Shown piece after piece: positions 41,583-45,852 of a stretch of 64,000 nt of DNA. Within the stretch, counting starts at the first letter, position 1; each line of letters begins with the position of its first letter. The position numbers and the translations under genes are program-made. The stretch is from Methylomonas sp. AM2-LC. GTDB taxonomy: Bacteria > Pseudomonadota > Gammaproteobacteria > Methylococcales > Methylomonadaceae. Location: positions 2,046,001-2,110,000 of the forward strand of contig NZ_CP157005.1 in NCBI RefSeq assembly GCF_039904985.1, read 5' to 3'. A model generated the notes under the pieces. It made no database searches and was not told where the DNA came from. It was given only the letters and a program-made list of their open reading frames with translations.

Positions 41583-42194
41583 TTAAGATTGTTTACGACG
41601 AACGACCCAGCCTACTAATGGCAAGCCTAATAACATCATTGCCCATTCTTGAGCTTCTGGTACTGCTGAAATTTGCAAATTAGCCCCGAAAATACCAGCG
41701 TTACTCAGATTGAAATTATTAGATTTAAATGGGAAAGCGAGAGAGCTGCCATTATAATTCCAAGCATCTTTAATATAGGTAATCTGTGGCGCAGTAGTTG
41801 CACCAATTGCACCTGCCCCGTAGTTTGTATATCCTACTGAAGCTACGTAGTAATCCGAACCTGCTTTGAGTTCCACTGGAGTAATTGCAGCATAGCTGAA
41901 TTGATTCAATACTGGGCTTGACTTAGTGACTGATGCTGAGGCTAATAAGTTGCCAGAACTGTCCCATAGACCAATTTCAACTGGACTACTGCTAACACCG
42001 GCAGTTAAAGAGCCAAGTTTTGTAACATCAACATTGGAGTTGGCCTGAAATTCGAAACCAAGATTCCAATTACTCCCTGAGAGATTACCTGCCAATGAAT
42101 TAAAAGAGATAGCTGGTGTATCAGCCTGTGCAATTCCAAAACTTAATGAAAATGTCAGAAATATTGATGTGATTGATGTTTTCATAGAAACCAT
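41583..42194 (-). CDS. PEP-CTERM exoprotein
   Basis: The 203-residue protein has a signal peptide (SIFLTFSLSFGIAQA), a beta-rich body like the DUF4082 type (LGFEFQANSNVDVTKLGSL, VEIGLWDSSGNLLASASV), and a C-terminal sorting signal VPEAQEWAMMLLGLPLVG followed by WVVRRKQS. AAGGA 10 nt upstream of the ATG at 42194 supports this start. Its last 67 bases are nearly identical to those of the PEP-CTERM gene at 44681. The motif is VPEA instead of VPEP, shared by that gene, suggesting both use the same exosortase variant. Confidence 0.82.
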   Translation of the reverse strand: MVSMKTSITSIFLTFSLSFGIAQADTPAISFNSLAGNLSGSNWNLGFEFQANSNVDVTKLGSLTAGVSSSPVEIGLWDSSGNLLASASVTKSSPVLNQFSYAAITPVELKAGSDYYVASVGYTNYGAGAIGATTAPQITYIKDAWNYNGSSLAFPFKSNNFNLSNAGIFGANLQISAVPEAQEWAMMLLGLPLVGWVVRRKQS

Positions 42195-42564: not shown

Positions 42565-43443
42565 CAACACGGTAAGTCGTAATTGCCAACGCGTCAGCCT
42601 CATAGGGCGCATTAGCTTCAGCGTAATGCGCCGCATGGTCGAAGGCAACAGTGTCGCAATACGGCTTCGCCTATTACGACCTATTCCGGCTTATCGCGTT
42701 AGCTTTAGGGCTTTGCCTAAGCTGTCTTGATTCATCTACATCAATCAACGCGATAAGCCGTTGCGCCGCATGGTTTAACTTCGTTCACCATCAACATCAA
42801 TAACGGGTAAGGGTGTTGCCCAATTTGCCGGGTATAAACCTTGATCAACACAACGATGAAAAGTGGAGTAAGGCCAATTAATCACTTGTTTAACCAATCC
42901 GTGTTTTACAGGATTAATGTGGCAGTAATCAAGATGTGCTGCATAATCGGCATCATCAAGAATTAGATGTTCCCAAAAACGCCGTTGCCAAATGCCTCTT
43001 TCACCCTTGGCAATACGTACGGCAGAACGTCTTTCAGTGATGGGTAATGCTTTTGAAAAAGCTTGCTTGATCAAGCGCCAGCGGGTGGTGTTATCGGTAT
43101 CACCTTGGGGAAGAGTCCATACACAGTGTAAATGATCAGGCAAAACCACCCAGGCATCAATATGAAAAGGCCAACGTCTTCTTACGTTTTTAACGGTATG
43201 CCTTAGGATGTCAATGTGGCGGATTAATAAATCATTAGGCTCTCGCTCTAGCAGATTAACGGTAAAAAAGTAGGTTCCACCGGGTATGCGGTAGCGTCGA
43301 TAGTTGGACATGAATAAAAAAATATTTTAGGTGTTCCAAAAATTTTAGCAAACGTGGTGGTTAGTGTCTATCATGCGGCGCAATAGGCTTCGCTATTGAC
43401 GCCCTATGAGGCAATCGCTTTGATAGTTGCGGCTTATGGTCTT
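42565..43443 (-). mobile_element. RAYT element, full copy (879 bp)
   Basis: The element contains a palindromic 139-bp unit (42565-42703), the RAYT gene (42775-43311) and the right-hand repeat ATTGACGCCCTATGAGGCAA to 43443. A shorter copy at 44220-44549 is the same at both ends but lacks 549 bp from the middle, which fixes the boundaries. Both ends consist of REP-like palindromes. Confidence 0.85.
42775..43311 (-). CDS. REP-associated tyrosine transposase (short type)
   Basis: The 178-residue single-domain RAYT has HUH residues H60-L-H62 (VLPDHLHCVWTLPQG) and the tyrosine region DYCHINPVKHGLV (about residue 129). The start MSNYRRYRIPGGTYFFTVNL is typical. It is a different subgroup from the longer RAYT at 9950. 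It is flanked on both sides by palindromic units that recur several times in the window and could be its substrates. Confidence 0.92.
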   Translation of the reverse strand: MSNYRRYRIPGGTYFFTVNLLEREPNDLLIRHIDILRHTVKNVRRRWPFHIDAWVVLPDHLHCVWTLPQGDTDNTTRWRLIKQAFSKALPITERRSAVRIAKGERGIWQRRFWEHLILDDADYAAHLDYCHINPVKHGLVKQVINWPYSTFHRCVDQGLYPANWATPLPVIDVDGERS

Positions 43444-43539
43444 AATGTTTTCGAACAAAGTTGGGGGTAAAACAAACTTGTCTTTTTATTTGCAAAGTTT
43501 GTCGCTTCGAAGCTGGGTTTCGTTATCTCAGCCCAGCCT

Positions 43540-43755
43540 TTATGCTGCTTCCAAAGTTTGTAAAGGTAAATGTGCAAGCGATATAGATTCAATATCCGTT
43601 TTTTGGCTCGCGTTCTGTACATCAATTCCCACAAGCTTACCGTTGCAATCAAAATCCAATACTACACCCTCAGCAACTTCGTCTGAGTCAACAGATGGAG
43701 TATTGGATAGATGAATATATAGCGAATCAGTTTCTTTATCGTAGCTAAGCTTCAT
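43540..43755 (-). CDS. DUF2283 protein (probable antitoxin-like partner)
   Basis: The 71-residue protein matches DUF2283: MKLSYDKETDSLYIHLSNTP, then VLDFDCNGKLVGIDVQNAS. It is cytoplasmic and its ATG overlaps the stop of the upstream DUF4258-like gene by 4 nt. In many genomes DUF2283 and DUF4258 genes are paired in this order and are suspected toxin-antitoxin modules, but I know of no proof. The pair lies between a RAYT element and its derivative. Confidence 0.75.
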   Translation of the reverse strand: MKLSYDKETDSLYIHLSNTPSVDSDEVAEGVVLDFDCNGKLVGIDVQNASQKTDIESISLAHLPLQTLEAA

Positions 43756-43988
43756 GGTTTAAATCTCCGATCCGGAAAGGCGTTGTGTAGGGTTATGCCG
43801 TCTTCGAGCGTTACCACTCGCAAATATTTACCTAGCTCTTGCACATATATCCAGTGCCGAATTCGACCATCTTCCTGGATTTCTTTGTGAGCAGTTTGAA
43901 TCAGCGCTGATAAACACCAATCTATCTGTATATAGGGCCGTTTAACTAAAACATCATTACGAAAATAAGCTGTAGTTGGGTGATCCAT
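43752..43988 (-). CDS. DUF4258-like protein, paired with DUF2283
   Basis: The 78-residue protein has the pattern RPYIQIDWCLSALIQTAHKE, then GRIRHWIYVQELGKYLRVV and TLHNAFPDRRF, as in small RelE-like proteins annotated DUF4258. It may act as the toxin of the pair; the fold suggestion is inferred. The downstream DUF2283 gene overlaps by 4 nt. Confidence 0.7.
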   Translation of the reverse strand: MDHPTTAYFRNDVLVKRPYIQIDWCLSALIQTAHKEIQEDGRIRHWIYVQELGKYLRVVTLEDGITLHNAFPDRRFKP

Positions 43989-44139
43989 GTCTTATAATAA
44001 TGTATAAAAAGACATTGTTCAATTTTGGCATTGATCGCATTCTGTGCGGATTGATGCACAACCTTTGATGGTAATGTTTTGGGCGAGTATGCACAGCTAT
44101 AAAGCAGATTAGCTTCGATGCTGGGTTTCGTTAACCAAT

Positions 44140-44216
44140 GTTGTAGGTGCTACAGTAAATGGAGTCAGTAAAACTGTAGATACAGCGTCAACACCTGCCG
44201 CATAATAAAAAAAGGT
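44140..44216 (+). repeat. Gene-tail repeat, left copy
   Basis: GTTGTAGGTGCTACAGTAAA to TAATAAAAAAAGGTAG resembles 44550-44645 on the far side of the deleted RAYT element. Read forward it would encode a tail such as VSKTVDTASTPAA followed by a stop. It contains part of the terminator hairpin of the PEP-CTERM gene at 44681. Confidence 0.6.
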
Positions 44217-44219
44217 AGT

Positions 44220-44549
44220 CAACACGGTAAGTCGTAATTGCCAACGCGTCAGCCTCATAGGGCGCATTAGCTTCAGCGTAATGCGCCGCATGGTCGAAGG
44301 CAACAGTGTCGCAATACGGCTTCGCCTATTACGACCTATTCCGGCTTATCGCGTTAGCAGATTAACGGTAAAAAAGTAGGTTCCACCGGGTATGCGGTAG
44401 CGTCGATAGTTGGACATGAATAAAAAAATATTTTAGGTGTTCCAAAAATTTTAGCAAACGTGGTGGTTAGTGTCTATCATGCGGCGCAATACGCTTCGCT
44501 ATTGACGCCCTATGAGGCAATCGCTTTGATAGTTGCGGCTTATGGTCTT
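44220..44549. mobile_element. Deletion derivative of the RAYT element (330 bp, MITE-like)
   Basis: Bases 44220-44358 match 42565-42703 and 44355-44549 match 43249-43443, with only a few differences. The 549-bp interior, including codons of the transposase after the first twenty, is missing. The joint falls at the four bases TAGC, present at both deletion ends in the full copy (42700-42703 and 43249-43252), indicating a microhomology deletion. It is nonautonomous. Confidence 0.92.
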
Positions 44550-44645
44550 GTAGGTGCAACTGTAAATGTAGTCAGTAAAACTGTAAATGTAGTCAGTAAA
44601 ACTGTAGATACAGCTTCAACACCTGCCGCATAATCAAAAAGGTAG
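44550..44645 (+). repeat. Gene-tail repeat, right copy
   Basis: Right counterpart of 44140-44216, with the internal unit TGTAAATGTAGTCAGTAAAAC present twice. The two copies flank the deleted RAYT element. Confidence 0.6.
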
Positions 44646-44680: not shown

Positions 44681-45471
44681 TTAAGATTGTTTACGACGAA
44701 CGACCCAGACTATTAATGGCAAGCCTAATAACATCATTGCCCATTCTCCTGCTTCGGGAACTGCTGATATAGATCCTGTGAATGTTAAACTGGCATTTAG
44801 AGAATACCCAGCAGTGTCAGCGCCAGTATTACTAATGGTATTACCATTAGCACCATTATTCGTATTATTAAGAATTACCTCAATTTGATTGCTGCCAATA
44901 TTGAGCAGATTACTGGAAAAAGTGAATGTTCCACCAGTATTACCTCCGTCGAAATTTTCTGTAATATAGGAACCGCCAGATACAAATTGAAATGCTCCTG
45001 TTGTTGGTGTTGATTTAGTATAAACAAGGTCAACTAACGTACCATTTATAAGTAATGCTGCGCGGTCATCAGCACCAAATGATGCGATATTTACTTGAAC
45101 ATTTTGTGAATTGTCTATACTACTAATATTAAAATCACGAACACCTGAAGACCAACCTGTATATGTTGATTGGGTAATATTTTGGCTAAGTGTGTAACCA
45201 CTTCCAGTAACCCAGGTTGAACCAACTGAGCTACCATATGTTACATAACTATTAAGGCTATTTGTGCCGTCAGAAAAAGACCAGTTACCAACATTTGTGT
45301 TATCTGTGCCAAAATCAAGAGTAGCAGCAGTGACTTGCGTGGTTGGTATAACAGCGACAAGTCCAGCTAATAAAACAGTTGTAATAATCTGCTTATTTTT
45401 CCTAAAATTCAGAAATGAACTTGCTATAATTTGAGTTGAGTTGAGTTGAGTTGAGTTGAGTTGAGTTGCAT
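44681..45471 (-). CDS. PEP-CTERM exoprotein, probably phase-variable (currently out of frame)
   Basis: A minus-strand frame without stops runs from 45490 to a TAA at 44681-44683. It encodes a signal peptide (IITTVLLAGLVAVIPTTQVT), a beta-rich domain (ATLDFGTDNTNVGNWSFSDG, NIGSNQIEVILNNTN) and a sorting signal VPEAGEWAMMLLGLPLIV followed by WVVRRKQS. The only good start is the ATG at 45471, with AAAGGA 9-14 nt upstream. It is followed at once by seven CAACT units plus CAA, and from there the ATG frame meets TAG after 15 codons. With six or nine units the ATG would read into the long frame and give about 261 residues. The 791-nt length is not a multiple of three. The coding region is otherwise intact, so slipped-strand phase variation is the simplest reading. 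Confidence 0.8.
45431..45468 (-). repeat. Pentanucleotide microsatellite (CAACT)7 within the start of the PEP-CTERM gene
   Basis: The plus strand reads (TTGAG)7 TTG. The tract lies directly behind the ATG at 45469-45471. Five-base units change the frame, so unit loss or gain switches translation. No other tract of this kind is seen in the window. Confidence 0.95.
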
Positions 45472-45493
45472 CAATATTCCTTTGAATTGCTTG

Positions 45494-45852
45494 TTACAAT
45501 AAATTTTCACCGAATTAATACCGATGGTTTCAAGTTTCATTTCAAAGAGGCAATCCAGCAATCCTTACAACAAGAACCCTAAGACTTTCCGCTTCTACCC
45601 TTTGGTAGAATTGGCCTTTACTCTTGGTTAATAATTAACATATAAAATAAGTATTTTCAATTCTATCTAACATATTTTTTTATATCCTCTGCGCCTTAAA
45701 TCTATCAGTAGCCTCAAACCCAGAAAAGCGATAGAATTCAACAAGAAAAAATCAAGTCTATCGTTTTTCAATTTCAATTCATGGAAACACGTATAACTAA
45801 TTGATTATAAATAACTATTCAGATTGATACAATAATAACTCAGGAGGTTCGC
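45494..45852. other. Intergenic region, about 360 bp
   Basis: A divergent promoter region for the PEP-CTERM gene (left) and the peroxidase (right). AT-rich. CTTTGGTAGAATTGGC may form a small hairpin with upstream GCTTCTACC. No gene is evident. Confidence 0.45.

Follow-up and report, generated by a model that had tools for sequence, protein, structure and literature searches.

Five genes for PEP-CTERM-type exported proteins in this genome carry a CAACT pentanucleotide tract directly past their start codon and lie behind a common leader that looks like a c-di-GMP-I riboswitch aptamer. Judging from sequence, these genes probably form a multi-locus slippage switch resembling that of opa genes, which would act on exosortase substrates under c-di-GMP control. 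The original prediction had been made on a single tract, located in the 64,000-nucleotide stretch analyzed here (the window, i.e., positions 2046001-2110000 of contig 1), for which it had proposed an ON/OFF switch; both the family and the aptamer had been overlooked.

CAACT tract genes and their products

All the features of the window locus described here lie on the minus strand. A Shine-Dalgarno sequence, AAAGGA (45478-45483), is read 6 nt upstream of an ATG start codon (45469-45471), and this codon is directly followed by seven perfect CAACT units and a terminal CAA (45431-45468; 7.6 copies at 100% according to Tandem Repeats Finder). In this 7-unit state, the ATG frame is closed after 15 codons by a TAG (45424-45426). 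The neighboring frame is open from stop to stop (44681-45493, with its TAA at 44681-44683), encodes a PEP-CTERM-type protein within 270 residues and is OFF in the assembly. The ATG joins this frame with 3, 6 or 9 units; starting from seven, the removal of one unit or the addition of two would suffice. The tract, its early stop, the neighboring open frame and the arithmetic of the switch had all been described in the original prediction, and they were found again at the same positions. A 3-unit CAACT run occurred in none of 100 dinucleotide shuffles of the window.

The tract is not a lone oddity and belongs to a multi-locus family. Searching the whole genome (5.39 Mb, three contigs) for (CAACT)3C returned five sites, namely C1:1306k, C1:2091k (the window copy), C1:2942k and two adjacent sites on a 289 kb contig, C2. 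All five tracts are located at the starts of PEP-CTERM-type genes sharing a like tail and the common leader, and at each of them the frame is read through at 3n units only (3, 6, 9). The assembly contains 6 units at C1:1306k, which is ON, 7 in the window, 8 at C1:2942k and 5 in both C2 copies, the last four being OFF with ATG frames ending after 15 (window), 18, 20 and 20 codons. With a one-in-three chance of being in frame, a single ON copy out of five is unremarkable, one or none being expected in 46% of cases by simple arithmetic. This spread of 5, 5, 6, 7 and 8 units over five loci supports the proposed slippage switch on an exosortase-type substrate.

Being paralogues, the five copies do not represent five independent origins. 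Their 5' leaders are 79-99% identical and their 3' ends 90-97%, and their bodies differ except in one twin pair. Three loci correspond to units with near-same edges, each containing one or two tract genes (L201 7269-8543, L202 7270-8554 and L203 8230-10509, converted from reversed coordinates), and the left edge sequence is present at exactly three sites of the genome, up to one mismatch being allowed. Transfer of the 1.29 kb module by a classical transposon was rejected, since neither clear terminal inverted repeats nor target duplications were seen by eye. The 289 kb contig carrying two of the five copies is perhaps a plasmid. A plasmid collection, searched at the DNA and protein levels, gave no DNA match and a single weak protein match (31.5% identity, Novosphingobium plasmid). 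Elsewhere in the window, the region 42565-44640 contains duplicated blocks of 139 and 201 bp together with inverted repeats, and the gene at 42775-43311 is weakly Y1 transposase-like (PF01797, 12.8 of 23 bits); together they possibly represent REP elements and a cognate transposase.

Regarding the product, the window protein displays a signal peptide, RKNKQIITTVLLAGLVAVIPTTQVTAA (45323-45403), judged by eye from the translation, and a C-terminal sorting signal, VPEAGEWAMMLLGLPLIVWVVRRKQS (44684-44761). The original assignment of these two elements held in part: the PEP-CTERM motif of the tail is plain by eye, but the curated profiles score it below their cut-offs, with 15.5 of 20.7 bits for PF07589 and 12.0 of 16 bits for TIGR02595 (14.4 bits for P0001, the protein of the ON copy). 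A Pfam search with the window protein gave no match. A neighboring PEP-CTERM-type gene (41583-42194) has a similar tail, an ordinary ATG and no tract. The NCBIfam matches of its product, of the window protein and of P0001 were mostly to PEP-CTERM families and all under cut-off; P0001 reached 46.4 of 50 bits with the FxDxF family, and NF033554 (PepA) gave 13 of 80 bits. Genome-wide, the PEP-CTERM profile search yielded 35 matches with E values of 1 or less, of which 14 exceed the cut-off; the five tract genes are among the others, with scores of 15.5 to 18.2 of 20.7 bits. CAACT tracts were found at the starts of 5 of the 30 PEP-CTERM-profile loci inspected. Structure prediction of the window protein from its single sequence was discarded as unusable (pLDDT 34).

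The genome contains four exosortase matches over the cut-off of PF09721. One of them, at C1:4419k, is located in surroundings that resemble by eye an exopolysaccharide cluster, and two genes at a distance of 6-8 kb encode products ending with the tails PEAGEWAMMLLGLPMVGWM(I/V)RRKQ. Because these two tails are near-identical to that of the window protein, the C1:4419k exosortase is the likely partner that would sort the tract proteins. Two matches to PF02461 (particulate methane or ammonia monooxygenase A) were also found, and the host is therefore probably a methanotroph. Besides, a heptamer array, (TAGCCCC)10.7, was observed in the C1:4879252 region (L062), about 60-135 bases upstream of another PEP-CTERM open frame, where it is possibly a promoter-spacing switch.

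The tract looks like a local addition. PEP-CTERM matches were obtained in 32 of 37 genomes of the genus, and none of the 36 other genomes showed such a CAACT tract. Other repeats (units of 4-11 bases, three or more copies) were found neither at the starts of 29 PEP-CTERM genes of the genus, one per genome, nor at 29 of its riboswitch loci, three of which had cut flanks; both sets were drawn from considerably longer lists. A wider scan of genome contigs returned at least 115 CAACT stretches. Among the matches listed, 21 of the 96 usable tracts led into a frame of at least 300 nt vs. 14 of 94 on the opposite strand, and a hydrophobic N-terminus was seen in 6 cases vs. 2; among these same matches, none of the 21 opened frames had a PEP-CTERM tail by eye. 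A widespread CAACT switch in PEP-CTERM genes is thus unsupported, both within the genus and in the wider scan. Also among the matches listed, five loci (L117, L159, L185, L192, L193), including Bacteroidetes and Saprospiraceae records, carry 5 to 11 CAACT units just upstream of signal-peptide-like starts and may represent further phase-variable exported proteins. In three other records, of Faecalicatena and Lactobacillus ruminis (L095, L141, L164), CAACT tracts are followed by near-same sequences, NDDYL(S/G)HRLFVKQ..., which point to a shared element or contamination.

A riboswitch-like leader and its predicted folding

The common leader occurs at six sites of the genome, each before a PEP-CTERM-type gene, the sixth of which (C1:2286k) has no tract. 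In the window, the 5' leader of the gene holds a divergent element that looks like a c-di-GMP-I class riboswitch aptamer (45545-45625). RF03167 gave 34.5 bits on positions 45545-45624 (cut-off 59, E 5.4e-6) and RF01051 34.8 bits for a gathering score of 35. All six leaders matched the c-di-GMP-I clan of Rfam, with scores of 32.2 to 34.8 bits that are all below the RF01051 gathering score. With 150 of 498 first-look candidates scored, RF01051 matched at least 10 sites of the genome with an E value of 0.1 or less, namely four strong ones elsewhere and the six leaders. For a more independent check, a genus model, R1, was built from 20 further aptamers found in the genus, of which 4 come from this genome and none is one of the six leaders, and it was searched over 171 kb of partly overlapping sequence. 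The window leader scored 40.3 bits with this model (E 3.5e-8) and the five remaining leaders 36-39 bits; no further match exceeded 12.6 bits in the window or 19.2 bits elsewhere. In the leader alignments, model positions 10, 37 and 75 are G, A and C, which we take to be the c-di-GMP ligand contacts. Covariation within the six leaders was no better than in shuffles, the four distinct rows having too few changes to tell, and four isolated aptamers were hardly more stable than their shuffles (z from -0.96 to 0.04).

Several other elements were noticed in these searches. The 19.2-bit match of R1 (L204:10025-10104, minus strand, E 0.01) lies directly upstream of a gene with a VPLPSSLWLF tail. Two strong c-di-GMP-I riboswitches of the same genome (L238 and L237) lie upstream of two genes that, by eye, resemble a filamentous haemagglutinin gene in one case and a large gene for a secreted product in the other, and a cspA thermoregulator-like match of 39.2 of 78 bits was obtained at L058:84-462 (minus strand). 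In the genus, c-di-GMP-I riboswitches are present in 30 of 37 genomes. Of 29 riboswitch loci retrieved, three were truncated; among the 26 with complete flanks, 8 are followed by a principal frame that bears by eye a tail of VPxP...WxFG type. Therefore, the link between this riboswitch and PEP-CTERM genes is not rare in the genus.

The P1 helix of the candidate aptamer is formed by a 5' strand, AAGAG (45621-45625), invariant in the six leaders, and a 3' strand, CTCTT (45545-45549). When the aptamer is folded in isolation, its minimum-energy structure pairs these two strands. In the paralogous leaders, the 3' strand is predicted to act as an anti-Shine-Dalgarno sequence as well. Indeed, the minimum-energy fold of five of the six leaders pairs the P1 3' strand CCTCTTTGA with the Shine-Dalgarno sequence. 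An equivalent duplex was obtained in 17-20 of 1000 shuffles for four similar leaders, and in 5 of 1000 for the tract-less C1:2286k leader, where the P1 strand and the Shine-Dalgarno sequence share a 9-bp complement. As the 3' P1 strand of the aptamer can mask the Shine-Dalgarno sequence in five of six leaders, c-di-GMP likely opens translation, and a c-di-GMP-ON translation switch is a reasonable prediction for the family, the window copy excepted. In the window leader this pairing is ordinary, being equalled by 406 of 1000 shuffles, so that such a switch is unsupported for this copy; its best fold has P1 closed, and P1 opens when a slightly longer stretch is folded. Forcing P1 and P2 costs 9.3-11.6 kcal/mol in the five non-window leaders. 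This leaves the Shine-Dalgarno sequence well exposed in C1:1306k and one C2 copy. In the second C2 copy the site is freed by about half, in the tract-less C1:2286k in part and in C1:2942k hardly at all.

These leaders could alternatively be decayed or non-functional aptamers carried along with a duplicated promoter, the genes then being controlled by slippage alone. The scores under the Rfam gathering scores and the unmasked Shine-Dalgarno sequence of the window leader would fit this explanation, as would the P2 loop, which is of GNRA type in the consensus and in none of the six leaders. However, P1 and the lower P3 helix are unchanged between the window and the other leaders despite an identity of just 79-82% in the wider upstream stretches. 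The 36-40 bits given by the genus model also speak against decay, as does the retention of both the aptamer and the 9-bp complement (5 of 1000 shuffles) before the tract-less sixth gene. A control by slippage alone appears unlikely on this evidence, and an aptamer that still responds to c-di-GMP is the preferred reading of the leader.

Coding frames of the OFF copies

The pair formed by C1:1306k (6 units, ON) and C1:2942k (8 units, OFF) provides the strongest evidence for the proposed switch. These two copies are 98.8% identical over 1285 bp with a single 10-bp gap, and none of the 546 coding bases past the tract differs; therefore, the tract changed while the coding sequence did not. The first downstream difference is located 704 bases past the tract, and upstream differences are found in the shared stretch 56, 113, 122, 149 and 166 bases before it. 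Although these copies are paralogues and not isolates, a coding-identical pair two units apart, with one copy in frame and the other out, strengthens the case for the switch put forward in the original prediction.

It could be argued that the OFF copies are frame-shifted pseudogenes whose tract is a mutation hot spot without selected switching. Indeed, four of the five copies are out of frame, and the loss of one copy would be harmless given the existence of near-identical ones. Yet the tract is the sole frame lesion in each OFF copy, and the 8-unit copy keeps past its tract the very coding sequence of the ON copy. Moreover, no stop interrupts any of the four OFF bodies, which span 182-250 codons. 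Including the ON copy, each of the five bodies is free of stops, which happened in none of 2000 first-order Markov simulations per copy, based on the composition of the respective body (simulated means of 10 to 15 stops, 14.6 for the window body). This makes decay into pseudogenes very unlikely, and switching copies are the better account of the OFF frames.

The protein might also be made from the present sequences if translation began at a rare codon, shifted frame at the tract or re-initiated. In-frame ATT codons closely precede the ATG in the window and also occur before the C1:2942k tract, and ATA and CTG codons are present past the tract in the window and in one C2 copy. Such codons can occasionally initiate translation, so that the rare-start route is no more than unlikely. 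Against these routes, no ATG, GTG or TTG lies ahead of the tail in the OFF frames of C1:2942k and of the window, where the first one occurs 232 codons past the tract, within the C-terminal tail. In the two C2 copies, the first such codon is a TTG that falls within the signal peptide, 20 or 28 codons downstream of the tract. Besides, the tract contains no homopolymer, and the in-frame copy uses the common ATG and Shine-Dalgarno sequence. Taken as a whole, synthesis by these routes has only a slim chance of being the explanation. Finally, an assembly or consensus error is extremely improbable: polishing can be misled by a near-identical duplicate of about 1.29 kb, but an ordinary read is longer than a 25-40 bp tract, and several errors would have had to arise independently to give four different lengths at five loci.

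Two proposed levels of control in a probable methanotroph

According to the proposed slippage switch under c-di-GMP control, slipped-strand mispairing of the CAACT tract just past the ATG would alter the unit number in living cells. With 3n units the ATG would read into the protein, and other counts would lead to an early stop. Each of the five copies would thus switch on its own and heritably, one of five being ON in the assembly. The five copies and the tract-less sixth gene sit behind a putative c-di-GMP-I aptamer that would bind the second messenger and turn translation on. Hence, expression of the tract genes would need both a high c-di-GMP level, as a deterministic key, and an in-frame tract, as a random key. 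The biofilm would then contain a mixture of cells that differ in their matrix or surface coats. More tentatively, this may be a two-key system in the full sense, in which every dispersed family member requires a c-di-GMP-bound riboswitch and an in-frame tract. A heritable lottery of coat proteins, already in place, would become apparent on entry into the biofilm, i.e., a variation of antigenic type in a free-living bacterium, perhaps directed against phages or grazers; we consider this extended version possible, with some doubt.

Both halves of this arrangement, the slippage switch and the control by a c-di-GMP riboswitch, are already known elsewhere. In a literature search that was followed in part, their combination was not found reported. 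In the excerpts available for Neisseria opa genes (PMC7157529, PMC13183285), several dispersed copies likewise carry a frame-setting pentanucleotide in the 5' region coding for the signal sequence. In gonococci, fewer copies are in frame than expected by chance, and near-identical copies tend to be out of frame (PMC13183285, PMC7157529), which is comparable to the present family. The likeness is claimed for the switch alone: the unit is CTCTT there and CAACT here, whereas the products are here PEP-CTERM-type exported proteins, a riboswitch leads each gene and the host is an environmental methanotroph-like bacterium. The same excerpts give a rate of opa variation of 0.007 per month of carriage for tracts of up to 5 pentanucleotide units and 0.09 for 6-8 units (PMC7157529). 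By extrapolation, if the same rates apply here, ready switching would be expected at the loci with 6, 7 and 8 units and rare switching at those with 5.

Regarding the leader, c-di-GMP riboswitches flank PEP-CTERM and VPLPA-CTERM genes in Methylophaga (PMC12530212), which is similar to the present case in placing them by PEP-CTERM genes of a methylotroph; unlike here, the accessible part of that report mentions no repeat tract or phase variation. The Akkermansia genome combines PEP-CTERM proteins with repeat tracts proposed for phase variation, but the homopolymer tracts named in the portion consulted are in capsule genes and not in PEP-CTERM genes (PMC3048395). The original prediction had stated that no slippage case was described for the PEP-CTERM class. 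This stands for repeat slippage, of which no case was found for the class in our partly followed search. It is less true of reversible variation in general, since a PEP-CTERM gene family is among those enriched near invertible DNA in gut bacteria, according to the available passages of PMC11892184. Such invertons are alike in bringing reversible DNA variation beside PEP-CTERM genes; they differ in relying on DNA inversion and in being documented there by enriched proximity, instead of repeat slippage at a coding start (PMC11892184). A matrix role of the tract proteins would fit the properties of Aquincola PepA, because this PEP-CTERM protein is involved in floc formation and has been proposed as an extracellular polymer component; it is RpoN-dependent, and the excerpt of that report mentions neither riboswitch nor tract (PMC9850573).

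What is new here, as far as can be told from the genome, is the probable slippage switching of another protein class, apparently in series with a c-di-GMP riboswitch. Opa-style multi-locus switching is best known from host-restricted pathogens. Its probable presence on exosortase substrates of a likely methanotroph suggests that random variation of the coat may be useful in biofilms without any immune host. If true, a second-messenger riboswitch and a slippage tract carried by one mRNA would be a clear example of two controls acting in series, one deterministic and the other random.
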